A stretch of 64,000 nucleotides of DNA, taken from NCBI RefSeq assembly GCF_001543895.1, contig NZ_JYIJ01000018.1, forward strand, positions 496,001 through 560,000, given 5' to 3'. This document shows positions 28,058 to 62,648 of this stretch, one piece after another. How positions within the stretch are numbered: the stretch's first letter is position 1; the number at the start of each line of letters is the position of its first letter. Origin of the DNA: Carbonactinospora thermoautotrophica. GTDB lineage: Bacteria > Actinomycetota > Actinomycetes > Streptomycetales > Carbonactinosporaceae. A model generated the notes under the pieces. It had not been told where the DNA came from. It searched no databases and saw nothing but the letters and a program-made list of their open reading frames with translations. A program made the position numbers and the translations under genes.

Positions 28058-29719
28058 ATGAACGACACCACTGCGGGTCTACTGCAGGCCGGCGCGCTCG
28101 TCGGCGCGCTGGCCGTGGTACACCGTCCCTTCGGCGACTACCTGGCCCGGGTCTACGCCAGCCCGCGCCACCTGCGCGTGGAACGCTGGATGTACCGGGT
28201 GGTCGGCGTCGACCCCGACGCCGAGCAGCGCTGGGACACCTACCTGCGCGCCGTGCTCGCGTTCTCCCTCGTCTCGATCCTCGGCCTGTACGCGCTGCTG
28301 CGGCTGCAAGACCGCCTGCCGCTGTCCCTCGGCAGGGCGCCGATCCCGCCGGACCAGGCGTTCAACACCGCCGTCTCCTTCGTCACCAACACCAACTGGC
28401 AGTCGTACTCCGGCGAGCAGGTCATGGGCCACCTGGCCCAGATGGCCGGGCTCGCGGTCCAGAACTTCGTGTCGGCGGCCGTCGGCATGGCCGTGGCGGT
28501 CGCCCTGGTGCGCGGTTTCGCCCGGACCCGGACCGACCGGCTCGGCAACTTCTGGGTCGACCTGGTCCGCGGCTGCGTGCGCGTCCTGCTGCCGATCGCG
28601 GTCGTGGGGGCGCTCCTGCTGATCGCGGGCGGGGTGGTCCAGAACCTCGCCGAGCCGCAGACCGTGCGGACGCTCGCCGGCGGCGAGCAAACGATTCCCG
28701 GCGGCCCGGTGGCTTCCCAGGAGGTCATCAAGGAGCTGGGCACCAACGGAGGCGGCTTCTACAACGCCAACTCCGCCCACCCCTTCGAGAACCCGAACCC
28801 GGTCACCAACTGGGTCGAGATCTTCCTGATGCTGCTGATCCCGTCCAGCCTGCCGCGCGCGTTCGGCCGGCTGGTCGGCGACACCCGTCAGGGGTACGCG
28901 ATCCTCGCCGCGATGGCCGTGCTGTACCTCGGCGCGCTCACCGCGATGACCGCGGCCGAGCTGGCCCACCCGGGTGCGGTGCCGCAGGCGGCCGGCGCGG
29001 CGATGGAGGGCAAGGAGACGCGGTTCGGCATCTTCGGCTCCACCCTGTTCGGCACCACCTCGACGGCGACCTCCACCGGCGCGGTGAACTCCATGCACGA
29101 CTCGTACACGGCGCTGGGCGGCGGTGTGGCCTTGCTCAACATGATGCTCGGCGAGGTGTCGCCGGGCGGTGTGGGCTCCGGCCTGTACGGGATGCTCGTG
29201 CTCGCCGTGGTCGCGGTCTTCGTCGCCGGCCTCATGGTGGGCCGCACCCCCGAGTACCTGGGCAAGAAGATCCGCGCCCGGGAGATGAAGCTGGTCGCCC
29301 TGTACATCCTCGTCGTGCCGGCCGTGATCCTGGTGGGCACCGGCCTCGCCCTGGCGCTGGGGACCGGGCGCTCCTCGATCCTCAACCCGGGCGCGCACGG
29401 GCTGTCGGAGGTCCTGTACGCGTTCACCTCGGCCGCCAACAACAACGGCAGCGCCTTCGCCGGCCTGAACGCCGACACGCCCTTCTACAACATCGGGCTC
29501 GGCCTGGCGATGCTCGCCGGCCGGTTCCTGCCGATCACGCTGGTGCTCGCCCTGGCCGGGTCGCTCGCCGCGCAGCAGCCGGTGGCGGCCACGTCCGGGA
29601 CGCTCAGCACCCACCGGTCGCTGTTCGTCGGCCTGCTCGCCGGGGTGACGCTGATCGTCGCCGGCCTCACGTTCTTCCCCGCACTCGCGCTCGGCCCGCT
29701 CGCGGAGGGTGTGTCCTGA
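28058..29719 (+). CDS. kdpA: Potassium-transporting ATPase channel subunit KdpA
   Basis: KdpA is the K+-selective membrane subunit, built from four pore-loop repeats. The 553-aa protein shows the degenerate selectivity loops: [32 protein letters not shown] and [12 protein letters not shown]. About ten membrane helices are visible. The stop shares one base with the kdpB start (TGATG). Confidence 0.97.
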
Positions 29720-31818
29720 TGTCGCTGTCCACTCTCGAAGCTCCGGAACTACGGGACAGAGGCGAGGAGCGGCCGCCACGCCGGGTCGCGGCCGGCTTCT
29801 TCGACCCGCGCCAGCTCGTCCGGTCGCTGCCGGAGGCGCTGCGCAAGCTCGACCCGCGGCTCATGGTTCGCAACCCGGTCATGTTCGTGGTCGAGATCGG
29901 TTCGGTGCTCACCACCGTGCTGGCGATCCGGCACCCGAGCCTGTTCGCCTGGCTGATCACGGCCTGGCTGTGGTTGACCGTGGTCTTCGCCAACCTCGCC
30001 GAGGCCGTCGCCGAGGGCCGCGGCAAGGCGCAGGCGGCCACGCTGCGCAAGACCCGCCAGAACACGTACGCCCGCCGGATCACCGCGGACGGGACCGAGG
30101 AGCGCATCCCCGCCTCCCAGCTCGCGGTCGGCGACGTCGTGGTCTGCGAGGCCGGCGACGTCATCCCCGGCGACGGGGACGTGATCGAGGGTGTGGCCAG
30201 CGTGGACGAGTCCGCGATCACCGGTGAGTCCGCGCCGGTGATCCGCGAGTCCGGGGGCGATCGCAGCGCCGTCACCGGCGGCACCAAGGTGCTGTCGGAC
30301 CGGATCGTGGTGCGGATCACGGCGAAGCCCGGGGAGTCCTTCCTCGACCGGATGATCGCGCTCGTCGAGGGCGCCGACCGGCAGAAGACCCCGAACGAGA
30401 TCGCGCTCAACATCCTGCTCGCCAGCCTCACGATCATCTTCCTGCTCGCGGTGGTGACGCTGCAGCCGCTCGCGGTCTACTCCGGCTCGCCCCAGCCGGT
30501 GGTGGTCCTGGTCGCGCTGCTGGTCTGCCTGATCCCCACCACGATCGGCGCCCTGCTGTCCGCGATCGGCATCGCCGGGATGGACCGGCTCGTTCAGCGC
30601 AACGTGCTCGCCCTGTCCGGCCGGGCCGTGGAGGCCGCGGGCGACGTCCACACGCTGCTGCTGGACAAGACTGGCACGATCACGCTCGGCGACCGGCACG
30701 CGGTCAAGTTCATCCCGGTCGACGGGGTGGACGAACGCCGGCTCGCCGATGCGGCCCAGCTGTCCAGCCTCGCCGACGAGACGCCGGAGGGCCGGTCGGT
30801 CGTGGTGCTGGCCAAGCGGGAGTACGGCCTGCGGACCCGGGAGAAGGGCGTCGTCCTGGGCGCCCACTTCGTGCCCTTCAGCGCCCAGACCCGCATGTCC
30901 GGGGTGGACATGCACGACGGCCGCCGCATCCGCAAGGGCGCGGCAGCCGCGGTGATGAAGTGGGTGCGCGAGAACGGGGGCCATCCGAGCGACGCGGTGG
31001 GCCCCCTGGTGGACGCCATCAGCGCGAGCGGCGGCACCCCGCTGGTCGTCGCCGAGCAGGTACCCGGCGAGCCCGCCCGGGCGCTCGGCGTGGTGCACCT
31101 GAAGGACGTCGTCAAGGCGGGCATACGGGAGCGCTTCGCCGAGCTGCGCCGCATGGGCATCAAGACCGTGATGATCACCGGGGACAACCCGCTCACCGCC
31201 AGGGCGATCGCCCAGGAGGCCGGGGTGGACGACTTCCTGGCCGAGGCCACGCCCGAGGACAAGATGGCGCTGATCAAGCGTGAGCAGGCGGACGGCAAGC
31301 TGGTCGCGATGACCGGCGACGGCACCAACGACGCCCCGGCGCTGGCCCAGGCCGATGTGGGCGTGGCCATGAACACCGGCACGTCCGCGGCCAAGGAGGC
31401 CGGCAACATGGTCGACCTCGATTCCAACCCGACCAAGCTCGTCGAGATCGTCGAGATCGGCAAGCAGCTGCTGATCACCCGGGGCGCGCTGACCACGTTC
31501 TCGATCGCGAACGACGTCGCCAAGTACTTCGCGATCATCCCGGCGATGTTCGCCGGCCTGTACCCGGGCCTGGACGCGCTCAACGTCATGCGGCTGGCCA
31601 CGCCGCGGTCGGCGATCCTGTCGGCGGTGATCTTCAACGCGCTGATCATCGTCGCGCTGATCCCGCTGGCGTTGCGCGGGGTCCGGTACCGCCCGGTGTC
31701 CGCCGACGCGCTGCTTCGCCGCAACCTGCTGGTCTACGGCCTGGGCGGCCTCGTCGCCCCGTTCGTCGGGATCAAGCTCATCGACCTGTTCGTCTCGCTC
31801 ATCCCAGGGATCGGCTGA
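29719..31818 (+). CDS. kdpB: Potassium-transporting P-type ATPase subunit KdpB
   Basis: KdpB is the ATP-hydrolysing subunit. The 699-aa P-type ATPase has the phosphorylation motif [10 protein letters not shown] with the phospho-Asp at residue 316, the actuator loop [11 protein letters not shown], the hinge [12 protein letters not shown] and the nucleotide domain segment F-S-A-Q-T-R-M-S-G. The kdpC ATG shares one base with the stop. Confidence 0.98.
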
Positions 31819-32405
31819 TGACCCACCAGATCACGGCCTTCGCCCGTCAGGCACTCGCCGCGGTCCGGGCCCTCGTGGTCCTCACGATCGTGCTCGGCCT
31901 GCTGTACCCGCTGCTGGTCACCGCGATCGGCCAGCTCGCCTTCCGCGACCAGGCCAACGGCTCGCGGGTGTCGTACCAGGGCCGGATCGTCGGCTCGTCC
32001 CTGCTCGGGCAGGGCTTCACCGGCCCGGAGTGGTTCCACCCCCGGCCCTCGGCGGCCGACGGGTACGACGCGAGCGTGTCCGGCGGGTCCAACCTCGGGC
32101 CGGCCAACCCGGAACTGCTGCGGACCGTCACCGAGCGCCGGGCCCAGGTGGCCCGGGAGAACGGGGTGCCAGAGTCGGCGGTCCCGGCCGACGCGGTGAC
32201 CGCGTCCGGCAGCGGCCTCGACCCGCACATCTCGCCCGAGTACGCGGCCATCCAGGTAAACCGGGTGGCGAGGGCCCGGGGCCTGGACCCGGCGCGGGTC
32301 GCCCAGTTGGTGCGCGCCCACACCCAGGGCCGCCTCCTGGGCTTCCTCGGCGAGCCGCGGGTCAACGTGCTGGAGCTCAACCTGGCGCTGGAGCAGTTGG
32401 GTTAG
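31818..32405 (+). CDS. kdpC: Potassium-transporting ATPase subunit KdpC
   Basis: KdpC is the single-span subunit that stabilises KdpAB and favours ATP binding. The 195-aa protein has one N-terminal helix (about residues 14-38) and an extracytoplasmic domain with G-S-S-L-L-G-Q, W-F-H-P-R-P-S-A and G-S-G-L-D-P-H-I-S-P, all conserved. It is the last gene of kdpFABC and is followed directly by a perfect palindrome that should end transcription. Confidence 0.97.
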   Translation: MTHQITAFARQALAAVRALVVLTIVLGLLYPLLVTAIGQLAFRDQANGSRVSYQGRIVGSSLLGQGFTGPEWFHPRPSAADGYDASVSGGSNLGPANPELLRTVTERRAQVARENGVPESAVPADAVTASGSGLDPHISPEYAAIQVNRVARARGLDPARVAQLVRAHTQGRLLGFLGEPRVNVLELNLALEQLG

Positions 32406-32408
32406 GCG

Positions 32409-32454
32409 GCTTTGCCTCGGGTGTGCGTGTCGACACGCACACCCGAGGCAAAGC
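32409..32454. terminator. 46-bp perfect palindrome, probable bidirectional terminator
   Basis: Arms of 21 bp (32409-32429 and 32434-32454) are perfect complements around TCGA, itself a palindrome. It sits between the kdpC stop (32405) and the stop of the convergent GNAT gene (32459). The hairpin can form in transcripts from both sides. The ends are GCTTTG and CAAAGC, and no long T tract follows on either side. Confidence 0.8.
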
Positions 32455-32458
32455 GGGG

Positions 32459-32968
32459 TCAGCCCTTCCGCCGCTGGCCGTACAGCAGGCTGCGGTGCCC
32501 GTCCGGGCCGACGTACTCGCCCCAGTACTCGTGACCGATCCGCTCGGCCACCTTGATCGAGCGCTGGTTGTCCGGATGGATCAGCGAGCACACCTCGTCC
32601 GCGCCCAGCACCTCGAAGGCGTACCGCACCGAGGCGCGGCCCAGCTCGGTCGCGTACCCCCGGCCCCACGCGAACCGGCCCAGCACCCAGCCGACCTCCA
32701 GCGCCGGCCAGCCCTCCGGGTACCACAGGCCGCCGCGGCCGAGCAGCCGCCCGGTCGCCTTCTCGATCACGGCCGACTGGGAGAACCCGCGCAGGTGCTG
32801 GTGGCCGACGCACTCCGCCATGGCGCGCCACGCCTGCGGGCGGCTGCGCGGGGTGGGGTCGCCGAGGTATCGGGTCACCTTCGGGTCGGCCATGATCTCG
32901 GCGAAGGCGTCGAAGTCGTCCGGAGTGAACGTGCGCAGGATCAGCCGTTCGGTCTCCAGCAGGGTCAT
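32459..32968 (-). CDS. GNAT acetyltransferase, RimJ/RimL-like
   Basis: A 169-aa acetyltransferase beginning T-E-R-L-I-L-R-T-F-T, the usual RimJ/RimL-type start. The acetyl-CoA binding region is W-G-R-G-Y-A-T-E (about residues 102-109), followed by H-P-D-N-Q-R-S-I-K-V-A-E-R-I-G, the typical C-terminal GNAT segment. The substrate may be an N-terminal amine or small molecule. It is transcribed toward kdpC and its start is only 33 bases from the kdpD start, so the two share a promoter region. Confidence 0.88.
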   Translation of the reverse strand: MTLLETERLILRTFTPDDFDAFAEIMADPKVTRYLGDPTPRSRPQAWRAMAECVGHQHLRGFSQSAVIEKATGRLLGRGGLWYPEGWPALEVGWVLGRFAWGRGYATELGRASVRYAFEVLGADEVCSLIHPDNQRSIKVAERIGHEYWGEYVGPDGHRSLLYGQRRKG

Positions 32969-33001
32969 GCGCCGAGCCTACGCAGAGGCACCGGGTCGAG
33001 A

Positions 33002-35548
33002 ATGAATCTCATGGGGCGCGGCACCTTGCGCATATATCTCGGCGCGGCTCCCGGCGTGGGCAAGACGTACGCGATGCTCAGCGAGGGGCACCGTCGCCGG
33101 CAGCGCGGCACGGACGTGGTGGTCGGGTTCGTCGAGACGCACGGCCGGCCCCGCACCGCCGCCCTGGTCGAGGGGCTGGAGGTCGTGCCGCGGCGGCGGA
33201 TCACCTACCGGGGCGCGACGTTCACCGAGATGGACGTGGACGCCGTGCTGGCCCGCAGGCCCCAGGTGGCGCTGGTCGACGAACTAGCCCACACCAACGT
33301 CCCCGGCTCCCGCAACGCCAAGCGCTGGCAGGACGTCGAGGAACTGCTGGACGCCGGCATCCACGTCATCTCCACGCTGAACATCCAGCACCTGGAGTCC
33401 CTCAACGACGTGGTCGAGCAGATCACCGGGGTGCCGCAGCGGGAGACCATCCCGGACGAGGTGGTGCGCCGCGCCGACCAGATCGAACTGGTCGACATGA
33501 CCCCGGAGGCGCTGCGCCGCCGGCTCGCCCACGGCAACGTGTACGCGCCGGAGAAGATCGACGCCGCGCTGTCCAACTACTTCCGGGTCGGCAACCTGAC
33601 CGCGCTGCGCGAGCTGGCCCTGCTGTGGGTCGCCGACCGGGTCGACGAGGGGCTGCGCCGGTACCGGGCCGAGCACCACATCGACCGGCCCTGGCCCGCC
33701 CGGGAACGGGTCGTGGTGGGGCTCTCCGGCGGGCCGGAGGGGGAGACGGTGATCCGGCGCGCCGCCCGGATCGCCGCCCGCGGCTCGGGCGGGGAGCTGA
33801 TGGCCGTGTACGTGGCGCGCAGCGACGGGCTCACCGGCGCGTCACCCAAGACGCTGGCCCGGCAGCGGGAGCTGGTCGAGAACCTCGGCGGGTCGTTCCA
33901 CACCGTGGTGGGCGACGACGTGCCGACCGCGCTGCTGCAGTTCGCCAAAGGGGTGAACGCGACCCAGCTCGTGCTGGGGATCAGCCGGCGCAAACGGCAC
34001 CTGTTCAGCCCGGGCGTCGGCAACACGGTCGCCCGGCTCGCCGACGAGATCGACGTCCACATCGTCCCGCACGAGAAGGCCGGCCGAGGCCTGCGGCTGC
34101 TCCCCGAGCGGCGCGAGGCCCTGTCCCGCCTGCGCCGGCTCTGGGGCTGGGCAGCAGCCGTGATCGGACCGCCGGCGCTCACCCTGCTGCTCGCCCTCAC
34201 CCGGGACATGCACTCGCTGCCCACCGATCTTTTGCTCTTCCTCGCACTCACCGTCGGGGTGGCGCTGCTGGGCGGGTTGTGGCCGGCGCTGTTCTGCGCG
34301 GTCTCCGGATCGCTGCTGCTCAACTTCTACTTCACCCCGCCGATCCACCGGTTCACCATCGCCGAGCCGGAGAACCTGCTCGCGCTGGTGGTGTTCGTGC
34401 TGGTCGGCGTCGGCGTCTCGTCGGTGGTCGACCTGGCCGCGCGGCGCACGCAGCAGGCCGCCCGCAGCCAGGCCGAGGCCGAGGTGCTGAGCGGGCTGGC
34501 GCGCAGCGTGCTCTCCGGGAAGGACGCCCTGCCCGCGCTGCTCAACCAGCTGAAGGAGACGTTCGGCATGCGGGCGGTGGCCCTGCTGGAGCGCGCCGAC
34601 GCCACCGGCGCGTGGCGGTGCGTGGGCGCGGTCGGGGACCAGCCGCCCACCCGACCGGAGGACGCCGACGTGGACGTGCCGATCTCCGATGACTTTGCCC
34701 TGGTGCTCGCCGGACGCGTGCCGTCGGCCGGCGACCGGCGGGTGCTGGAGGCGTTCGCCGCCCAGGCGGCCGTGGTGCTGGAGCGGCAGCGGCTGGCCGC
34801 GCAGGCCGCGGAGGCGCACCGCCTGGCCGAGGCCGACCGCACACGGACCGCGCTGCTTGCCGCGGTCTCCCACGACCTGCGCACCCCGCTCGCCAGCATC
34901 AAGGCGGCGGTGAGCAGCCTGCGCGCCGACGACGTGCGCTGGGACCCAGAAGACGAGGCCGAGCTGCTCGCCGCGATCGAGGAGTCGGCCGACCGGCTCG
35001 ACGCCCTGGTCGGCAACCTGCTCGACATGAGCCGGCTGCAGACCGGCACGGTCACCCCGGTCATGCGGCCGGTCGGGCTCGACGAGGTGGTGCCGGCCGC
35101 GCTCGCCGGGGTGCCGGCCGCCCGGGTCCGGCTCGACGTCCCCGAGTCCCTGCCTCTGGTGTGGGCCGACCCGGGCCTGCTGGAGCGGGTCGTCGCCAAC
35201 GTGGTCGAGAACGCCGTCCAGCACTCTCCGCCGGACCAGCCGGTCCTCATCCAGGCCGGCGCCATCCAGGATCGGGTCGAGCTGCGCGTGGTCGACCGTG
35301 GCCCGGGCGTGCCCGACGAGGCCAAGGACCGGATCTTCGAGCCCTTCCAGCGGCTCGGCGACGCGCCGAAGGGCACCGGGGTGGGCCTCGGGCTGGCGGT
35401 CGCCCGGGGCTTCGCCGAGGCGTTGGGTGGTTCGCTCACCGCGGAGGACACGCCCGGCGGTGGGCTGACCATGGTGCTCGCGCTGCGCGCCGTGGTCCCG
35501 TACGCGACCGCGCCGGACATGGCCGTACGAGACAGGGAGGCTGGATGA
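33002..35548 (+). CDS. kdpD: Potassium/turgor sensor histidine kinase KdpD
   Basis: KdpD phosphorylates KdpE when K+ is limiting. The 848-aa protein has an N-terminal KdpD domain with Walker A G-A-A-P-G-V-G-K-T-Y (about residues 14-23), a USP-like domain (about 240-355), and four short membrane helices (about 380-480). A GAF-like region follows, then HisKA with H624 in S-H-D-L-R-T-P-L, and an ATPase domain with N-V-V-E-N-A-V-Q-H and G-V-G-L-G-L-A-V. ATG 33002 or 33011 is the start; the open frame to 32030 only shadows kdpC and the GNAT gene. There is no clear ribosome binding site. Confidence 0.95.
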   Translation: MNLMGRGTLRIYLGAAPGVGKTYAMLSEGHRRRQRGTDVVVGFVETHGRPRTAALVEGLEVVPRRRITYRGATFTEMDVDAVLARRPQVALVDELAHTNVPGSRNAKRWQDVEELLDAGIHVISTLNIQHLESLNDVVEQITGVPQRETIPDEVVRRADQIELVDMTPEALRRRLAHGNVYAPEKIDAALSNYFRVGNLTALRELALLWVADRVDEGLRRYRAEHHIDRPWPARERVVVGLSGGPEGETVIRRAARIAARGSGGELMAVYVARSDGLTGASPKTLARQRELVENLGGSFHTVVGDDVPTALLQFAKGVNATQLVLGISRRKRHLFSPGVGNTVARLADEIDVHIVPHEKAGRGLRLLPERREALSRLRRLWGWAAAVIGPPALTLLLALTRDMHSLPTDLLLFLALTVGVALLGGLWPALFCAVSGSLLLNFYFTPPIHRFTIAEPENLLALVVFVLVGVGVSSVVDLAARRTQQAARSQAEAEVLSGLARSVLSGKDALPALLNQLKETFGMRAVALLERADATGAWRCVGAVGDQPPTRPEDADVDVPISDDFALVLAGRVPSAGDRRVLEAFAAQAAVVLERQRLAAQAAEAHRLAEADRTRTALLAAVSHDLRTPLASIKAAVSSLRADDVRWDPEDEAELLAAIEESADRLDALVGNLLDMSRLQTGTVTPVMRPVGLDEVVPAALAGVPAARVRLDVPESLPLVWADPGLLERVVANVVENAVQHSPPDQPVLIQAGAIQDRVELRVVDRGPGVPDEAKDRIFEPFQRLGDAPKGTGVGLGLAVARGFAEALGGSLTAEDTPGGGLTMVLALRAVVPYATAPDMAVRDREAG

Positions 35549-36219
35549 CCCGCGTGCTGGTGGTCGACGACGAACCGCAGATCGTCCGCGCGCTCACGAT
35601 CAACCTGCGCGCCCGCCGGTACGAGGTGGACGCCGCGGTCGACGGGCGCGGGGCGCTGGAGCTGGCCGCGCGATGCCACCCGGACGTGGTCATCCTCGAC
35701 CTGGGTCTGCCGGACATGGACGGCGTGGACGTGATCCGGGGCCTGCGTGGCTGGACCAACGTGCCGATCATCGTGCTGTCGGCCCGCCAGGCGTCCGGCG
35801 AGAAGGTGCACGCGCTGGACGCGGGCGCCGACGACTACGTGACCAAGCCGTTCGGCATGGACGAGCTGCTGGCCCGGCTGCGCGCCGCGGTGCGCCGCAC
35901 CACCCCGGCCGAGGAGGTCCCGGTGGTCGCCACCGAGCATTTCACCGTCGACCTGGCGGCCAAGAAGGCGACCCGCGAGGGGCACGACGTGCGGCTCACC
36001 CCGACCGAGTGGCACCTGCTCGAGGTGCTGGTGCGCAACGCCGGCCGACTGGTCAGCCAGCAGCAGCTGCTCCAGGAGGTCTGGGGGCCGCAGTACCGTT
36101 CGGAGACCAACTACCTGCGTGTCTACATGGCGCAGTTGCGGCGCAAGCTGGAGCCCGACCCGTCCCGCCCCCGGTACCTCGTCACCGAACCCGGAATGGG
36201 CTACCGGTTCGAGACGTGA
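35545..36219 (+). CDS. kdpE: kdp operon response regulator KdpE
   Basis: A 224-aa OmpR-family regulator that activates kdpFABC. The receiver domain has D8-D9, phospho-acceptor D52 in V-I-L-D-L-G-L-P, and the K-P-F loop near residue 102; the winged helix contains L-T-P-T-E-W-H-L-L and R-S-E-T-N-Y-L-R-V-Y, both typical of KdpE. The ATG overlaps the kdpD stop (ATGA). Confidence 0.95.
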   Translation: MTRVLVVDDEPQIVRALTINLRARRYEVDAAVDGRGALELAARCHPDVVILDLGLPDMDGVDVIRGLRGWTNVPIIVLSARQASGEKVHALDAGADDYVTKPFGMDELLARLRAAVRRTTPAEEVPVVATEHFTVDLAAKKATREGHDVRLTPTEWHLLEVLVRNAGRLVSQQQLLQEVWGPQYRSETNYLRVYMAQLRRKLEPDPSRPRYLVTEPGMGYRFET

Positions 36220-36694: not shown

Positions 36695-37408
36695 ATGACG
36701 ACGACCGAACGGCCGGACCACGGCCAAGACGGCCAGGCCTCCGAAACCCCGGACCCGGCGACGCCGAAACGGGCGCCGGCGAGCGGCTGGGCCAAGACGC
36801 TCGGCGCGGAGAACCTCTCGCTGGCGGACACCCTGGGCGGCTCGCGCGGGCTGCTCGACATGGGCCTGCCCGGCGTGCTGTTCGTGGCCGTCTACACGGT
36901 CACCAGGAACCTCACAGCCTCGGTCTGGACCGCGGTCGCGCTGGCCGGCGCGCTGACCGCGCTGCGGCTGGTGCGGCGGGAGTCCCTCCAGCAGGCGGTC
37001 GGTGGCTTCCTCGGCGTGGCGCTGTGCGCGTTCATCGCGGCGAAGTCCGGGCGCGCCGAGAACTACTACGTGCCCGGGTTCTTCATCAACATCGCGTACG
37101 GGACCGCCGCCCTGGTCTCGGTGCTGGTCCGCTGGCCGCTGATCGGTGTGCTGGTCGGCCCGGTCCTCGGGGAAGGCCTGGCCTGGCGGCGCGATCCGGC
37201 GCGGATGCGGGCGTACACGATGTGCACCTGGCTGTGGGTGGGCCTGTTCGCGGTACGGCTGCTGGTGCAGCTGCCGCTGTACTTCGGCCAGCACGTGATC
37301 GCGCTCGGCATCGCCCGGGCGGCGATGGGCTTCCCGCTGTTCGGCCTGGTGATCTACGTCAACTGGCTGATCCTGCACCGGGTGCCGAAGGCGCAGCCAG
37401 CGCCGTGA
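36695..37408 (+). CDS. DUF3159 family membrane protein
   Basis: A 237-aa protein with a disordered, charged N-terminus (about residues 1-55) and six membrane helices. Conserved features include G-G-S-R-G-L-L-D-M-G-L-P near residue 48 and the intramembrane stretch S-G-R-A-E-N-Y-Y-V-P-G-F. This is the actinobacterial DUF3159 family, whose function is unknown. Its constant linkage to trkA genes hints at ion or osmotic physiology, but that is inference. Confidence 0.88.
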   Translation: MTTTERPDHGQDGQASETPDPATPKRAPASGWAKTLGAENLSLADTLGGSRGLLDMGLPGVLFVAVYTVTRNLTASVWTAVALAGALTALRLVRRESLQQAVGGFLGVALCAFIAAKSGRAENYYVPGFFINIAYGTAALVSVLVRWPLIGVLVGPVLGEGLAWRRDPARMRAYTMCTWLWVGLFAVRLLVQLPLYFGQHVIALGIARAAMGFPLFGLVIYVNWLILHRVPKAQPAP

Positions 37409-37443: not shown

Positions 37444-38115
37444 TCAGCCCGCGCTGTGGTACGGCGACAGCAGGTTCTCCAGCTCCCGCTCCCGGTCCGG
37501 GGAGGTGACGAACAGCAGCTCGTCGCCCGCCTCCAGCGGGTCGTCCTTGGTGGGGACCACCACGCGGCCTTCGCGGATGATCGTCACCAGCGCGGTGTCC
37601 GGCGGCCACGGGACGTCGCCCACGCGGGAGCCGACCAGCTCGGCGTCGGCCGGCAGGGTCAGCTCGACCAGGTTGGCGTCGCCGTGGCTGAAACGCAGCA
37701 GGCGGACCAGATCGCCGACCGTGACCGCCTCTTCCACCAGCGCCGACAGCAGCCGCGGGGTGGACACGGCGACGTCCACGCCCCAGGCCTCGTTGAACAG
37801 CCACTCGTTCTTGGGATGGTTCACTCGGGCCACCACCCGGGGGACCCCGTACTCGGTCTTCGCCAGCAGCGACACGACGAGGTTCACCTTGTCGTCGCCG
37901 CTCGCCGCGATGACCACGTTGCAGCGGTGCAGCCCGGCCTCCTCCAGCGAGGAGATCTCGCAGGCGTCCGCCAGCAGCCACTCGGCCTTCGGCACGCTCT
38001 CGACCTTGATGGCCGCTGGGTCCTTGTCGATGAGCAGGACCTCGTGGCCGTTCTCCAGCAGTTCCAGGGCGATGGACCGGCCGACCTTCCCGGCCCCGGC
38101 GATGGCGACGCGCAT
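37444..38115 (-). CDS. TrkA-family (RCK) potassium uptake regulator, second copy
   Basis: A 223-aa RCK protein: NAD-binding Rossmann domain starting M-R-V-A-I-A-G-A-G-K-V-G-R (residues 1-13) with the acidic L-L-I-D-K-D-P at the end of beta 2, and a TrkA-C domain from about 135. I set the start at ATG 38115, where the Rossmann fold starts; the frame upstream is only a shadow of the neighbour. It overlaps the first trkA gene by one base, so they are cotranscribed, as with the ceoB/ceoC pairs of mycobacteria. No TrkH/KtrB channel gene is in view. Confidence 0.92.
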   Translation of the reverse strand: MRVAIAGAGKVGRSIALELLENGHEVLLIDKDPAAIKVESVPKAEWLLADACEISSLEEAGLHRCNVVIAASGDDKVNLVVSLLAKTEYGVPRVVARVNHPKNEWLFNEAWGVDVAVSTPRLLSALVEEAVTVGDLVRLLRFSHGDANLVELTLPADAELVGSRVGDVPWPPDTALVTIIREGRVVVPTKDDPLEAGDELLFVTSPDRERELENLLSPYHSAG

Positions 38116-38777
38116 CAGTGCTCCTCCGGGCCTTTCGCGAAGACCCGCTCCACCTGGGCCTGGTCCTCGATCCGCATGATGACGTGCACCAGGTCGCCCT
38201 CCTGCAGGACGGTGTCCTTGGTGGGCAACATCCCCTCGCCGAGGCGGGTCAGGAACGCGACGCGGACCCCGGCCTCCTCCTCCAGGCGGGAGATCCGCTG
38301 GCCGACCCACGCGGTGTCGATGTGGACCTCGGCGAGCTGGATCGTACCGCTCGCGTCCCGCCACTCCGGCTCTGAGCCCGCCGGCAGCAGGCGGCGCAGC
38401 ATCTGGTTCGCGGTCCAGCGTACGGTCGCCACGGTCGGGATGCCCAGGCGCTGGTACACCTCGGCTCGACGGGGGTCGTAAATGCGGGCTACCACGTTCT
38501 CCACCCCGAACGTCTCGCGGGCGACGCGAGCGGAGATGATGTTGGAGTTGTCACCGCTGCTGACCGCGGCGAACGCACCGGCCTGCTCGATGCCGGCCTC
38601 TTTCAGCGTGTCCCGGTCGAACCCGATCCCGGTCACCCGCAGTCCGTTGAAGCCCGAGCCCAGCCGGCGGAACGCCTCGGGGTTCTGGTCGATGATCGCG
38701 ACTGAATGGCCCATCTCTTCCAGGCTGAGTGCGAGCGTGGATCCCACGCGGCCGCAGCCCATGATGACGATGTGCAC
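38115..38777 (-). CDS. TrkA-family (RCK) potassium uptake regulator, first copy
   Basis: A 220-aa RCK protein with N-terminal V-H-I-V-I-M-G-C-G-R-V-G-S (GxGxxG class), D-Q-N-P for nucleotide binding, and a C-terminal TrkA-C domain (about residues 130-215). GTG 38777 is preceded by GGGAAGGG, a good ribosome binding site. The pair with the next gene suggests a heteromeric ring. The gene is divergent from the KimA-like importer with only 115 bases between, so it may gate that transporter instead of a Trk channel. Confidence 0.92.
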   Translation of the reverse strand: MHIVIMGCGRVGSTLALSLEEMGHSVAIIDQNPEAFRRLGSGFNGLRVTGIGFDRDTLKEAGIEQAGAFAAVSSGDNSNIISARVARETFGVENVVARIYDPRRAEVYQRLGIPTVATVRWTANQMLRRLLPAGSEPEWRDASGTIQLAEVHIDTAWVGQRISRLEEEAGVRVAFLTRLGEGMLPTKDTVLQEGDLVHVIMRIEDQAQVERVFAKGPEEH

Positions 38778-38892: not shown

Positions 38893-40926
38893 GTGCCCAA
38901 TCTGGCGGATCTGTCCAAACGGCTGCTTGTCGGCCGGGCGCTGCGCAGCGCCCAGCTGAGCGAGACGTTGCTGCCCAAACGCATCGCCCTGCCGGTCTTC
39001 GCCAGCGACGCGCTGTCCTCGGTCGCGTACGCCACGCAGGAGATCCTGCTCGTGCTGAGCCTGGCGGGCACCGCGCTTTTGCACCTGACCTGGTACGCGG
39101 CGGCCGCAGTCGTCGTCGTGATGCTGACGGTGGTGGCCTCCTACCGGCAGAACGTGCACGCCTACCCGAGCGGCGGCGGCGACTACGAGATCGCGAACAC
39201 CAACCTGGGGCCCGGGGTCGGGCTCGTGGTGGCCAGTGCCTTGCTCGTCGACTACGTGCTCACCGTCGCGGTGTCCACCAGCGCCGGCGTGGCGAACCTG
39301 GCGTCCGCGTACGAGGTCCTGGCCGGGCACGAGGTGGGGCTGACCCTCGGCATCGTCGCGCTCATCGTGCTGATGAACCTGCGCGGGGTGCGGGAGTCGG
39401 GCACGGCGTTCGCCATCCCGACGTACGCGTTCATGCTCGGCATCCTGGGCATGATCGCCTGGGGCCTGATCCGCATCCTGCTCGGCCACGACATGGTGGC
39501 CGCCTCGGCCCGGTACGAGATCCGGCCCGAATCCGGCTACACGTCCCTCACCACGCTCGGGATCCTCTTCCTGGGGTTGCGCGCCTTCGCCTCCGGGTGC
39601 ACGGCGCTGACCGGCGTGGAGGCGATCAGCAACGGCGTGCCGGCGTTCCGCAAGCCGAAGAGCAAGAACGCGGCCACCACGCTCGCGCTCATGGGCGGCA
39701 TCGCGGTGACCATGTTCACGGGCGTCACGTTCCTGGCGATCCACACCCGGGTCCACATCGCCGAACACACCGAGGACCTGGTCGGCTTCACCGGGGAGTA
39801 CCAGAAGACGGTGATCGCCCAGATCGGCGAGACCGTGTTCGGCACCGGGTCGCTGGGCTTCTACTACGTCCAGTTCGTCACCGCGATCATCCTGCTGCTC
39901 GCCGCGAACACCGCGTTCAACGGCTTCCCGGTGCTCGCCTCGATCCTCGCCCAGCACCGCTACATGCCGCGCCAGTTGCACAACCGCGGCGACCGCCTGG
40001 TGTTCAGCAACGGCATCCTGCTGCTGGCCGCCTTCGCGGGCCTGCTGATCTGGGCGTTCGACGCCAACCCGAGCCGGCTGATCCAGCTGTACATCGTCGG
40101 GGTGTTCGTCTCGTTCACGCTCAGCCAGATCGGCATGGTGCGCCACTGGACCCGGCTGCTGAAGACCGAGACCGACCCGAAGGCCCGGCGCAAGATGTCC
40201 CGGTCCCGGCTCATCAACGGATTTGGCGCCTGTCTGACCGGCACGGTCCTGGTCGTGGTACTGGTCACGAAGTTCGTGTACGGTGCCTGGATCGCGATCG
40301 CCGCCATGGCTGTGCTGTGGGTGACGATGCGCGGCATCAAACGGCACTACGACCGGGTGGCGAACGAGTTGCGGGTGGCCGAGGGTGCCGCGGAGGCGAC
40401 CACGCTGCCCTCACGCGTCCACGCGATCGTGCTGGTGTCCAAGATCCATAAGCCGACGCTGCGCGCGCTCGCGTTCGCCCGGGCGGCCCGGCCGAGCGTG
40501 CTGGAGGCGGTCACGGTCAACGTGGACCCCGAGGACACCAAGGCGCTGCAGGAGGAGTGGGACCGGCGGGAGCTGCCGGTGCCGCTGAAGGTCCTGGACT
40601 CCCCGTACCGGGAGATCACCCAGCCGATCGTCAACTACGTGCGCTCGATCCGGCGGAACAGCCCACGTGACGTGGTCGCGGTGTTCATCCCCGAGTACGT
40701 GGTGGGCCACTGGTGGGAGCACCTGCTGCACAACCAGAGCGCGCTGCGGATCAAGGGCCGGCTGCTGTTCGAGCCGGGCGTGATGGTGACCAGCGTGCCC
40801 TACCAGCTGGCGTCGTCGGCGAAGCTCGAGCAGAAGGCTGACCGGGCCGAGCGGTTCGCCCCCGGAGCCATCCGCCGGGGTGAGCCGGCACGCCCGTCCG
40901 GCGCGGAGGAAATCGTTTCGAGGTAG
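38893..40926 (+). CDS. KimA-like K+ importer of the APC superfamily
   Basis: A 677-aa protein with about 12 membrane helices (to residue ~480) and a cytoplasmic C-terminal USP-like domain (about 505-640). Automatic naming would give amino-acid permease, but the layout and core sequence match Bacillus KimA, a high-affinity K+/H+ symporter. The K+ ligands I recall for B. subtilis KimA (D36, Y43, D117, T121, S125, T230, E233) have matching residues here: D39, Y46, D120, T124, S128, T240 and E243. Its position next to two TrkA genes and kdp supports K+ transport. The start appears leaderless. Confidence 0.8.
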   Translation: MPNLADLSKRLLVGRALRSAQLSETLLPKRIALPVFASDALSSVAYATQEILLVLSLAGTALLHLTWYAAAAVVVVMLTVVASYRQNVHAYPSGGGDYEIANTNLGPGVGLVVASALLVDYVLTVAVSTSAGVANLASAYEVLAGHEVGLTLGIVALIVLMNLRGVRESGTAFAIPTYAFMLGILGMIAWGLIRILLGHDMVAASARYEIRPESGYTSLTTLGILFLGLRAFASGCTALTGVEAISNGVPAFRKPKSKNAATTLALMGGIAVTMFTGVTFLAIHTRVHIAEHTEDLVGFTGEYQKTVIAQIGETVFGTGSLGFYYVQFVTAIILLLAANTAFNGFPVLASILAQHRYMPRQLHNRGDRLVFSNGILLLAAFAGLLIWAFDANPSRLIQLYIVGVFVSFTLSQIGMVRHWTRLLKTETDPKARRKMSRSRLINGFGACLTGTVLVVVLVTKFVYGAWIAIAAMAVLWVTMRGIKRHYDRVANELRVAEGAAEATTLPSRVHAIVLVSKIHKPTLRALAFARAARPSVLEAVTVNVDPEDTKALQEEWDRRELPVPLKVLDSPYREITQPIVNYVRSIRRNSPRDVVAVFIPEYVVGHWWEHLLHNQSALRIKGRLLFEPGVMVTSVPYQLASSAKLEQKADRAERFAPGAIRRGEPARPSGAEEIVSR

Positions 40927-41103: not shown

Positions 41104-42384
41104 GTGAGTGAGTCCCTCCGGGGGCAGGTCTACGAGTTGGAGATCGGGCCGGTCGCGCACGGCGGCATGTGCGTCGCCCGGCACGAGGGGCGGGTGGTGT
41201 TCGTCCGGCACGCGCTCCCAGGCGAGCGTGTCCGGGCGGTGATCACCGAAGGGCGGTCGAGCGGACGGTTCCTCCGCGCGGACGCGATAGAGATCCTTCG
41301 GCCGGCACCCGACCGGGTCACGCCGCCGTGCCCGTACGCCGGGCCCGGCAAGTGCGGGGGGTGCGACTGGCAGCACGCCACGCCCGAGGCGCAGCGCAAG
41401 CTCAAGGCGGCCGTGGTCGCCGAGCAGCTACGCCGGCTGGCGGGGGTCAAGCGCAAGGTGTACGTCGAGGAGGTGCCGGGCTCTCCGGGCGGACTGGACT
41501 GGCGCACGCGCGTGCAGTTCTCCGTCGATGAGGAGGGCCGCATCGGCCTGCGCAAACACCGCTCGCACGAGGTGGTGCCGATCGACCGGTGTCTCATCGC
41601 ACACCCGCTGATCGAGTCGCTCGGCATCGAGAAGGAGATCTGGACCGGTGTCGCTGGCGTGGAGGCCATCGCCTCCGCGTCCACCGGCGATCGGGCCGTG
41701 GTCGTCACCCCGGTCGAGGGGGCGCGTCGCGTGGACGTGCCCGACCTGGCCGAGGACCACGCCCTCCTGGAGCGTGATCCTGTCAAGGGCCGGGTCCGCG
41801 TCGTGGATGGCCGCGACGGGGTGCGGGAACGCGCCGCCGGGCGGGAGTGGCAGGTGTCGGGCAGCGGCTTCTGGCAGGTCCACCCGAAGGCGCCCGAGAT
41901 CCTGGTCGAGGCCGTGCTCGACGCGCTCGACCCGCAACCCGGCGACACCGCGCTCGACCTGTACTCCGGGGTCGGCCTGTTCGCCGGCGTGATCGGCCAG
42001 CGCGTCGGTCCCGAGGGAGAGGTCATCGCGATCGAGGCCGACCCGCGGGCGGCCGCCGACGCCCGGTACAACCTGCGCGACATGCCGTGGATCACGGTCG
42101 AGCGGGGCCGGGTGGAGCGCCTGCTGCGCCGGGTCGATTTCGGCCCGAAGGATCTGGTCGCCCTGGACCCGCCGCGCAACGGCGCCGGCCGCTCGGTGGT
42201 CGAGGAGATCGTCGCCCTGGAGCCGCAGCGCGTCGCGTACGTGGCCTGCGACCCGGCTGCGCTCGCCCGCGACATCGGGTTCTTCCGCGACCTGGGGTAC
42301 GAGCTGATCGATCTGCGCGCCTTCGATCTTTTCCCGATGACCCACCACGTGGAGTGCGTGGCCACGCTGGAGCCGATCGACTGA
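41104..42384 (+). CDS. TrmA/RumA-family RNA (uracil-5) methyltransferase with TRAM domain
   Basis: A 426-aa class I SAM-dependent methyltransferase. Order of parts: N-terminal TRAM domain (about residues 5-65), a Cys cluster C-P-Y-A-G-P-G-K-C-G-G-C (about 77-88) that with C in D-R-C-L-I-A probably binds a 4Fe-4S cluster, then a Rossmann domain with D-L-Y-S-G-V-G-L-F-A-G and V-A-L-D-P-P-R. Catalytic Cys is C382 in V-A-C-D-P-A-A-L. The target (tRNA U54 or rRNA) cannot be told. Ribosome binding site GAGGAGAGG precedes GTG 41104. Confidence 0.9.
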   Translation: MSESLRGQVYELEIGPVAHGGMCVARHEGRVVFVRHALPGERVRAVITEGRSSGRFLRADAIEILRPAPDRVTPPCPYAGPGKCGGCDWQHATPEAQRKLKAAVVAEQLRRLAGVKRKVYVEEVPGSPGGLDWRTRVQFSVDEEGRIGLRKHRSHEVVPIDRCLIAHPLIESLGIEKEIWTGVAGVEAIASASTGDRAVVVTPVEGARRVDVPDLAEDHALLERDPVKGRVRVVDGRDGVRERAAGREWQVSGSGFWQVHPKAPEILVEAVLDALDPQPGDTALDLYSGVGLFAGVIGQRVGPEGEVIAIEADPRAAADARYNLRDMPWITVERGRVERLLRRVDFGPKDLVALDPPRNGAGRSVVEEIVALEPQRVAYVACDPAALARDIGFFRDLGYELIDLRAFDLFPMTHHVECVATLEPID

Positions 42385-61115: not shown

Positions 61116-62648
61116 ATGAGTCTGCTCCGGACCAAATCGGTCGAGCAGTCCATCCGGGACACCGAGGAGCCGGAGTACAGGCTCCGCAAGGATCTCACCG
61201 CCCTGGACCTGACCGTCTTCGGCATCGGCGTGATCATCGGTACCGGAATCTTCGTGCTCACCGGGGTAGCGGCCAAGGACTACGCCGGTCCCGCCGTGGC
61301 GCTGTCCTTCGTGGTTGCCGGCGTCGTCTGCGCGCTCGCCGCTTTGTGCTACGCCGAGTTCGCCTCGACCGTCCCGGTCGCCGGCTCGGCCTACACGTTC
61401 TCGTACGCGACCCTCGGCGAGCTGCCGGCCTGGATCATCGGCTGGGACCTGGTACTCGAGTTGGCGCTCGGCGCGGCCGTCGTCTCGGTCGGCTGGTCGA
61501 ACTACTTGACCAACCTGCTGGAGAATTTCGGAATCAGCCTTCCCGGTGTCATCGCCGATAGCGCCGACGGCGTCTTCAACCTGCCGGCCGCCATGATCGC
61601 GCTTCTGCTGACCGCCGTTCTCACGATCGGTATCAAGATCTCGTCACGAGTCAATCTTGTGATCGTCACGTTGAAGGTCGCGGTCGTCCTTTTCGTGATT
61701 TTTGCCGGATTGTTCTTCGTCAAGGGCGAGAACTACCGGCCCTTCATCCCGGACCCGGTTTCCGGTAAGGCGGTCGAGGGCCTGCGCGCTCCGCTCGTCC
61801 AGGTGCTGTTCGGCGTCGCCCCGGTCAGCTTCGGCGTCTTCGGCATCTTCACCGCGGCGGCCGTGGTCTTCTTCGCCTACATCGGCTTCGACGTCGTCGC
61901 CACCGCCGCCGAGGAGACGCGCCGGCCGCAGCGGGACCTGCCCATCGGCATCATCGGGTCGCTCGCCATCTGCACGGCGCTGTACGTGGCGGTGTCGCTC
62001 GTCGTCACCGGCATGCAGCACTACACGAAGCTGGACGAACACGCCCCGCTCGCGGCGGCGTTCGCGGCGGTCGGGCACCCCGGCTTCGCCGTGATCATCG
62101 CCCTCGGCGGGCTCGCTGGCCTGACCACGGTCGTCATGATCCTCATGCTCGGCCAAGCCCGCGTGCTCTTCGCGATGAGCCGCGACCACCTGCTGCCGCC
62201 TGCCTTCGCGAAGGTCCACCCGCGGTTCGGCACGCCCTACCGGATCCAGATCACCGTCGGCGTCATGACCGCGATCCTGGCCGGCTTCATCCCGCTCGCC
62301 GCCCTCGCTGAGATGGTGAACATCGGCACGCTGTGCGCGTTCGTGCTGGTGTCGATCGCGGTGATCATCCTGCGGCGCACGCGTCCGGATCTGCGCCGCG
62401 CGTTCCGCACGCCGCTCGTCCCGCTGGTCCCGGCCTTCTCGGCGCTCGCCGCCTTCTACCTGATGCTCAACCTGGCGGTCGAGACGTGGCTTCGGTTCCT
62501 GGTCTGGATGGTGATCGGCTTCTTCATCTACTTCCTGTACAGCCGCAGCCACTCCAAGCTGGCCCGGCTCGTCGGCGACGAGGTCGCCGGCGAGCGGGAG
62601 GTGCTGGCGGAAACCACCTTCCCGAGCGACCGCGACGGCAAGCAGTGA
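61116..62648 (+). CDS. APC family amino-acid permease
   Basis: A 510-aa transporter with 12 helices and the cationic amino-acid transporter start, R-L-R-K-D-L-T-A-L-D-L-T-V. G-I-G-V-I-I-G-T-G-I-F (about residues 36-46) is the substrate-binding loop of helix 1, and A-Y-I-G-F-D-V-V-A-T-A-A-E-E (about 257-270) is typical of the YfnA/CAT subgroup. The substrate is a guess: basic or neutral amino acids. In contrast to the KimA-like protein at 38.9 kb, it has no C-terminal soluble domain. GGGAGG lies upstream of ATG 61116. Confidence 0.9.
   Translation: MSLLRTKSVEQSIRDTEEPEYRLRKDLTALDLTVFGIGVIIGTGIFVLTGVAAKDYAGPAVALSFVVAGVVCALAALCYAEFASTVPVAGSAYTFSYATLGELPAWIIGWDLVLELALGAAVVSVGWSNYLTNLLENFGISLPGVIADSADGVFNLPAAMIALLLTAVLTIGIKISSRVNLVIVTLKVAVVLFVIFAGLFFVKGENYRPFIPDPVSGKAVEGLRAPLVQVLFGVAPVSFGVFGIFTAAAVVFFAYIGFDVVATAAEETRRPQRDLPIGIIGSLAICTALYVAVSLVVTGMQHYTKLDEHAPLAAAFAAVGHPGFAVIIALGGLAGLTTVVMILMLGQARVLFAMSRDHLLPPAFAKVHPRFGTPYRIQITVGVMTAILAGFIPLAALAEMVNIGTLCAFVLVSIAVIILRRTRPDLRRAFRTPLVPLVPAFSALAAFYLMLNLAVETWLRFLVWMVIGFFIYFLYSRSHSKLARLVGDEVAGEREVLAETTFPSDRDGKQ

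Follow-up and report, generated by a model that had tools for sequence, protein, structure and literature searches.

The best-described relative of the transporter discussed here is KimA (YdaO) from Bacillus subtilis, for which several structures are available (6s3k, 8b70 and 8b71). In the 3.3 Å structure, the K+ ligands are Tyr43, Asp36, Thr230 and Tyr377, with S125 too distant to take part (PMC10284832). Y377 is at the same time a direct K+ ligand and a gate (PMC6994465, PMC10284832), forming the thin gate together with D36, T121 and T230 (PMC6994465). Mutational work showed that uptake is abolished by D36A/N, Y43A and E233A/Q, that Y377A raises the KS from 0.09 to 11 mM, that T230A behaves much like the wild type and that D117 mutants still transport, with E233 being the proton-coupling residue (PMC6994465). 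Escherichia coli Kup (PF02705) belongs to the same superfamily and its D23, E116 and E229 correspond to D36, D117 and E233 of KimA (PMC6994465), although it lacks R337, Y118 and N237 (PMC10284832). Its sequence is too distant for a confident family match.

TrkA proteins are soluble regulators, and in the TrkA–TrkH and KtrA–KtrB systems such proteins, built of RCK_N and RCK_C domains, regulate a K+ uptake protein. The mycobacterial 'Trk' has been presented as a K+ transporter consisting of the TrkA proteins CeoB and CeoC, with its membrane subunit left unnamed (PMC4553272, PMC12136442, PMC13163235); Thermotoga maritima TM1088A/B likewise has two different TrkA subunits (PMC4380455). Which membrane protein do the mycobacterial regulators serve? 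TrkH, KimA and Rv2690 go unmentioned in the mycobacterial K+ papers PMC12136442, PMC13163235 and PMC6375644, as do TrkH, TrkG and Rv2690 in PMC4553272. Transposon insertions in ceoB and in the adjacent Rv2690 of M. tuberculosis both enhance survival in rifampicin (PMC12216072), and Rv2690c, named an integral membrane protein, has come up in genome-wide pyrazinamide and starvation-rifampicin screens (PMC8805019, PMC10534295); we found no paper calling it KimA. In Streptomyces venezuelae, a KimA-like protein, Vnz_27465 (Sven5551), has been reported, with 39% identity to KimA, in a genome from which TrkH and Ktr are absent (PMC10117811). Its locus number adjoins that of Vnz_27460, an RCK_C protein, much as the gene studied here has TrkA neighbours, and Vnz_27460 is not proposed as its partner in the text consulted.

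The window, a stretch of 64,000 nucleotides from Carbonactinospora thermoautotrophica, contains, at the coordinates given in the earlier note, an open reading frame (ORF) with a GTG start and a 677-residue product, surrounded by genes for K+ transport:

28058..29719, plus strand: kdpA (PF03814, E=1e-236)
29719..31818, plus strand: kdpB, a P-type ATPase
31818..32405, plus strand: kdpC (PF02669)
32030..35548, plus strand: ORF containing kdpD (PF02702); the KdpD domain runs from residue 330, the true start lying downstream
35161..36219, plus strand: ORF containing the kdpE response regulator, with the domain from residue 132
36695..37408, plus strand: DUF3159 protein, convergent with ceoC, a class-specific conserved neighbour
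37444..38115, minus strand: ceoC-type trkA (RCK_N + RCK_C), from domain matches
38115..38777, minus strand: ceoB-type trkA (RCK_N + RCK_C), from ortholog placement, with an inferred GTG start
38893..40926, plus strand: kimA-like gene, 677 aa, with predicted K+ site D39, Y46, T124, T240 and Y400, proton residue E243 and K+ sensor D120
38977..40371, plus strand: its transmembrane domain (TMD), 12 helices, residues 29-493 (AF2/DSSP)
40417..40812, plus strand: its cytosolic alpha/beta domain, residues 509-640, with the putative c-di-AMP motif H613-N614-Q615-S616 (alignment, AF2 model)
41104..42384, plus strand: TRAM-domain RNA methyltransferase, a conserved syntenic neighbour downstream of kimA

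The kdpABCDE genes (28058-36219) are followed by an OB-fold ORF and then by the DUF3159 gene. A context of kdp plus trkA had been noted before; kdpABCDE is indeed there, but the TrkA genes number two, one of the CeoB and one of the CeoC type. The genes kimA and ceoB are divergent, with 115 bp between their starts, and the ATG of ceoC overlaps the stop codon of ceoB by one base (TGATG), which makes joint translation of the two probable. The methyltransferase probably does not belong to the transport system.

What does the 677-residue protein transport? Searched with phmmer against all PDB chains (threshold E ≤ 0.001), it returned one distinct sequence, that of B. subtilis KimA (6s3k/8b70/8b71), with E=5.2e-115 over residues 9-639, a similarity that chance could not produce. 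The two proteins are 40% identical in an alignment over about 600 residues, with 44% identity in the TMD and 26% in the cytosolic domain. In Pfam, the protein is labelled PF13520 (AA_permease_2) with E=1.4e-27, a value from a different search than the 5e-115 for KimA; judged by sequence, this label is a superfamily match only. It does raise the possibility of an APC amino-acid or polyamine permease, which shares the LeuT-type fold, and AdiC and ApcT are among the Foldseek matches of the AF2 model. Yet KimA is far ahead in both sequence and fold scores: the best three Foldseek PDB matches are KimA entries (8b71 with an rmsd of 2.9 Å and a TMt of 0.91), non-KimA transporters do not exceed a TMq of 0.52, and there are no amino-acid transporters among the PDB sequence matches. 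The glycine-rich TM1 motif (G-S/T-G) of amino-acid permeases is also missing, TM1 here reading ASDALSSVAYA. The genome encodes nine PF13520 proteins, namely this one, a paralogue and seven ordinary APC permeases, none of which gave a phmmer match to the protein or carries the joint K+ signature, a comparison in which the TM1 column is approximate because APC permeases are hard to align with KimA in TM1 and two were left unanchored. One ordinary APC amino-acid permease, encoded at 61116-62648 of the window (PF13520, E=5e-52), served as a control. Since, in addition, the K+ signature is near-invariant in 154 KimA relatives and the surrounding genes are K+ genes, an amino-acid permease is extremely improbable; homology, fold and site residues led to its rejection.

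Independent alignment with KimA placed all seven residues singled out in the earlier note at their KimA positions and none outside the K+ site. D36, Y43, D117, T121 and S125 correspond to D39, Y46, D120, T124 and S128, at the constant offset of +3 that had been claimed, and T230 and E233 to T240 and E243, at an offset of +10 past a 7-residue insertion. These positions had been presented as seven ligands, and here the description needs amending: all are conserved, but D117, S125 and E233 are not K+ ligands, and the ligand Y377 (Y400 here) had been missed. Y118 (Y121 here), N237 and Y377 are further identical positions absent from that list. Among the 154 relatives, no change is seen at D36, Y43, D117, Y118 or T230, and a single one each at T121, E233 and Y377 (153/154). 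The acid at E233 has no diagnostic value by itself: it is frequent in ordinary APC permeases, several of the seven in this genome included. By analogy with KimA, K+ would be bound at D39, Y46, T240 and Y400, with T124, and E243 would carry the proton; Y46 would form the outer gate, and D39 and Y400 the inner one. Could the protein have kept the KimA fold and shifted its substrate, to another monovalent cation, or might it sense K+ instead of importing it in bulk? Two tunnel residues differ from KimA (S320 to N and Q324 to V), and the two KimA copies of the genome could have diverged; the K+-coordinating, gate and proton residues are nevertheless all identical and near-invariant, which makes such a shift very unlikely.

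Full-length homology to KimA and a complete putative set of K+ site, gates and coupling glutamate were thus found in the sequence, along with the KimA fold in the model. Together with the genomic context, these features make it almost certain that the protein is a KimA-type K+/H+ symporter of the KUP/APC superfamily, which bears out the proposal that it is an importer of this type rather than an amino-acid permease. The assignment is right yet not new, since the same one has been published for Streptomyces orthologues (PMC10117811); KimA identity was already anticipated there and the present protein adds another member.

The AF2 model (mean pLDDT 77.8, pTM 0.70) has 12 TM helices, as had been predicted, followed by a C-terminal alpha/beta domain at about residues 509-640. 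This domain had been called USP-like, a description that fails: Pfam Usp gives no match, and the published description of the domain is PPAT-like. The USP domain was therefore rejected. In the putative c-di-AMP pocket, the residues R337 (R360 here), V457, V506 and H579-N580-Q581-S582 (H613-N614-Q615-S616 here) are identical to KimA, whereas P479, a backbone contact, is replaced by L and W592 by F. R360, the partner residue of the motif, is located in TMD loop 8-9. The protein thus shares with B. subtilis KimA its layout of 12 TM helices and cytosolic domain, the fold, the K+ site, the gates, E233, D117, R337 and H579-N580-Q581-S582, and differs in the two tunnel and two pocket substitutions, in its position beside two TrkA genes and in that no riboswitch was found in the window.

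The genome encodes a diadenylate cyclase (DAC), and it is reasonable to expect, from the predicted pocket, that c-di-AMP binds there and locks the transporter in an inward-occluded state. On one side the nucleotide would contact H613-N614-Q615-S616 of the cytosolic domain, and on the other R360 in the loop joining TM8 and TM9. The R337/HNQ core is altered in 2/9 KimA proteins from genomes without a detected cyclase, compared with 0/36 from genomes with one; conservation of the pocket is no proof of c-di-AMP use, as an intact core also occurs in several genomes where no cyclase was detected. Two other routes for c-di-AMP were considered. The (I/L)(I/L)X2DX1RX5N(I/L)(I/L) signature of c-di-AMP-binding RCK_C domains (CpeA/KhtT/KtrA type) is absent from both CeoB and CeoC, and control through these proteins was rejected on this ground. 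The result is in line with PMC10117811, which reports no c-di-AMP binding by the RCK_C domain of S. venezuelae Vnz_27460. A c-di-AMP riboswitch, as found at kimA in Firmicutes, was rejected as well, since an Rfam scan of the whole window gave nothing at the gathering threshold.

If the transporter is KimA, what are CeoB and CeoC regulating? TrkH (PF02386) has no match in this genome (98.9% complete), and TrkH was therefore rejected as the CeoB partner here. Linkage, defined as KimA within 1.5 kb of CeoB, was scored in 118 genomes of the class, of which 106 have a KimA homologue, 113 a CeoB-type TrkA and 38 TrkH (PF02386). KimA is linked in 89 of the 113 genomes with CeoB, always in divergent orientation (89/89), with gaps of 39-531 bp (median 113). 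TrkH is in no case adjacent to CeoB, the nearest on a shared contig lying about 80 kb off. The order ceoC-ceoB-kimA-methyltransferase was seen in most of 80 named loci, including Mycolicibacterium canariasense and Mycolicibacillus koreensis, where the kimA-ceoB arrangement is confirmed and parallels Rv2690c-ceoB; the likeness of Rv2690c, an integral membrane protein gene adjoining ceoB as kimA does here, is taken from its published description. In several Streptomyces the ceoB-kimA spacing is 2-4 kb. TrkH is absent from 78 of the 113 genomes with CeoB, and KimA is present in 75 of these 78; the other three are G167, which has Kup, G205, which is 76% complete, and G227, in which the CeoB match is cut at a contig end.

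Outside the class, CeoB-like proteins were defined by at least 45% identity and more distant TrkA proteins by at most 40%, with a neighbourhood of 8 kb. KimA lies within 8 kb in 30 of 43 CeoB-like loci, 22 divergent and eight co-directional with kimA upstream, and TrkH in 3/43. The 18 more distant TrkA proteins are never near KimA (0/18) and adjoin TrkH in 7/18. Such a split between KimA-linked and TrkH-linked proteins is what one would expect if TrkA comes in two kinds. Mapped onto a tree of 59 rows, linkage requires eight changes, compared with 19.5 in shuffles, so linkage is inherited and sometimes lost, and genome counts are not independent events. The position of B. subtilis KimA in the tree is uncertain because of long branches. 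A general mutual exclusion of KimA and TrkH was rejected: outside the class the two are largely exclusive, 40 genomes having KimA only, 71 TrkH only, nine both and 17 neither, with a p of 8e-13 that ignores kinship and is phylogenetically confounded, and inside the class they do not exclude each other (p=1.0).

This conserved linkage makes a functional link likely, in which the orphan CeoB and CeoC have KimA, rather than TrkH, as their membrane partner; that CeoBC and KimA form a physical complex, or that the regulators gate the carrier, is a more tentative suggestion from the same linkage. CeoB and CeoC, encoded divergently 115 bp away, would serve KimA in place of TrkH and thereby place a KimA-type carrier under nucleotide control. 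Unlike in TrkA–TrkH or KtrA–KtrB, the proposed partner is a LeuT-fold carrier and not a channel-type subunit of the TrkH/KtrB kind. In its widest form, to which we assign a probability of about 0.42, the proposal is that in the Actinomycetota the LeuT-fold KimA symporter has replaced TrkH as the partner of CeoB/CeoC, that its gating is twofold, with nucleotides acting via the RCK proteins and c-di-AMP via the cytosolic domain of KimA, and that it supplies the conducting subunit so far missing from the mycobacterial 'Trk'.

KimA may, on the other hand, work alone and have ceoBC as neighbours only through a shared role in K+ homeostasis and a divergent promoter, with CeoBC acting on TrkH, Kup or a channel without RCK domains. 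In B. subtilis, KimA needs no TrkA for its activity or for its regulation by c-di-AMP (PMC6994465, PMC10284832), and in one family KimA has moved off from ceoBC. Five genomes (G164, G209, G236, G239 and G247) have a CeoB-type TrkA and TrkH without KimA, so CeoB may serve either membrane partner; G167 has Kup. Standing against independence are the 78/113 CeoB genomes without TrkH, 75 of which have KimA, the fact that within the class no TrkH lies near CeoB, whereas elsewhere TrkH adjoins more distant TrkA proteins, and the persistence of the linkage across classes in two orientations. We regard independence of KimA as a serious candidate, at somewhat less than even odds.

The DUF3159 protein (36695-37408) might instead be the membrane partner of CeoB/CeoC. 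It is found in 114 of the 118 class genomes, more than kimA, is usually beside ceoC and remains there where KimA has moved away (L080, L081). Outside the class, however, it occurs in just 2/43 CeoB genomes, and four class genomes without CeoB retain it; DUF3159 is therefore not a general partner and was rejected as such, making this reading quite improbable.

As far as we found, the linkage of kimA and ceoBC is unreported, and no title or abstract we found proposes a KimA-TrkA partnership in Mycobacterium or Streptomyces, in a search that covered few subscription papers. The linkage offers a testable answer as to which membrane protein the mycobacterial Trk regulators serve. If KimA is the partner, this would explain K+ uptake in actinobacteria without TrkH and the alike behaviour of ceoB and Rv2690 mutants, and RCK regulation would be tied to a carrier, not a channel. 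Even without the pairing, genes of this kind should be re-annotated as KimA across the phylum wherever they now carry the name 'amino acid permease' or 'integral membrane protein'.

Several variants of the family deserve mention. In L079 (G207:C294) and L075 (G128:C1), KimA is either apart from ceoBC or of a divergent subfamily and adjoins kdpA; in G207, about 270 bp separate KimA from TrkH. KimA proteins in other classes of the phylum have about 750-800 aa and a second, tandem cytosolic domain (L017, L019-L024, L027, L028, L030, L032). A divergent long subfamily (L072-L074, L076; 34-36% identity) carries S125 to Q and, in the pocket, N580 to D and V457 to E; its hosts are small genomes without a diadenylate cyclase, plus one genome with a cyclase. 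The second KimA of the Carbonactinospora genome (G000:C19:210409-212421; L002, L003:8401-10413) is 67% identical to the first and lies away from TrkA, with a DUF389 protein upstream and a PAS/GAF/SpoIIE protein downstream. It clusters in the tree with the second KimA of Streptomyces and Kitasatospora and, like many KimA genes of the class, gives a weak match to the Kup profile PF02705.
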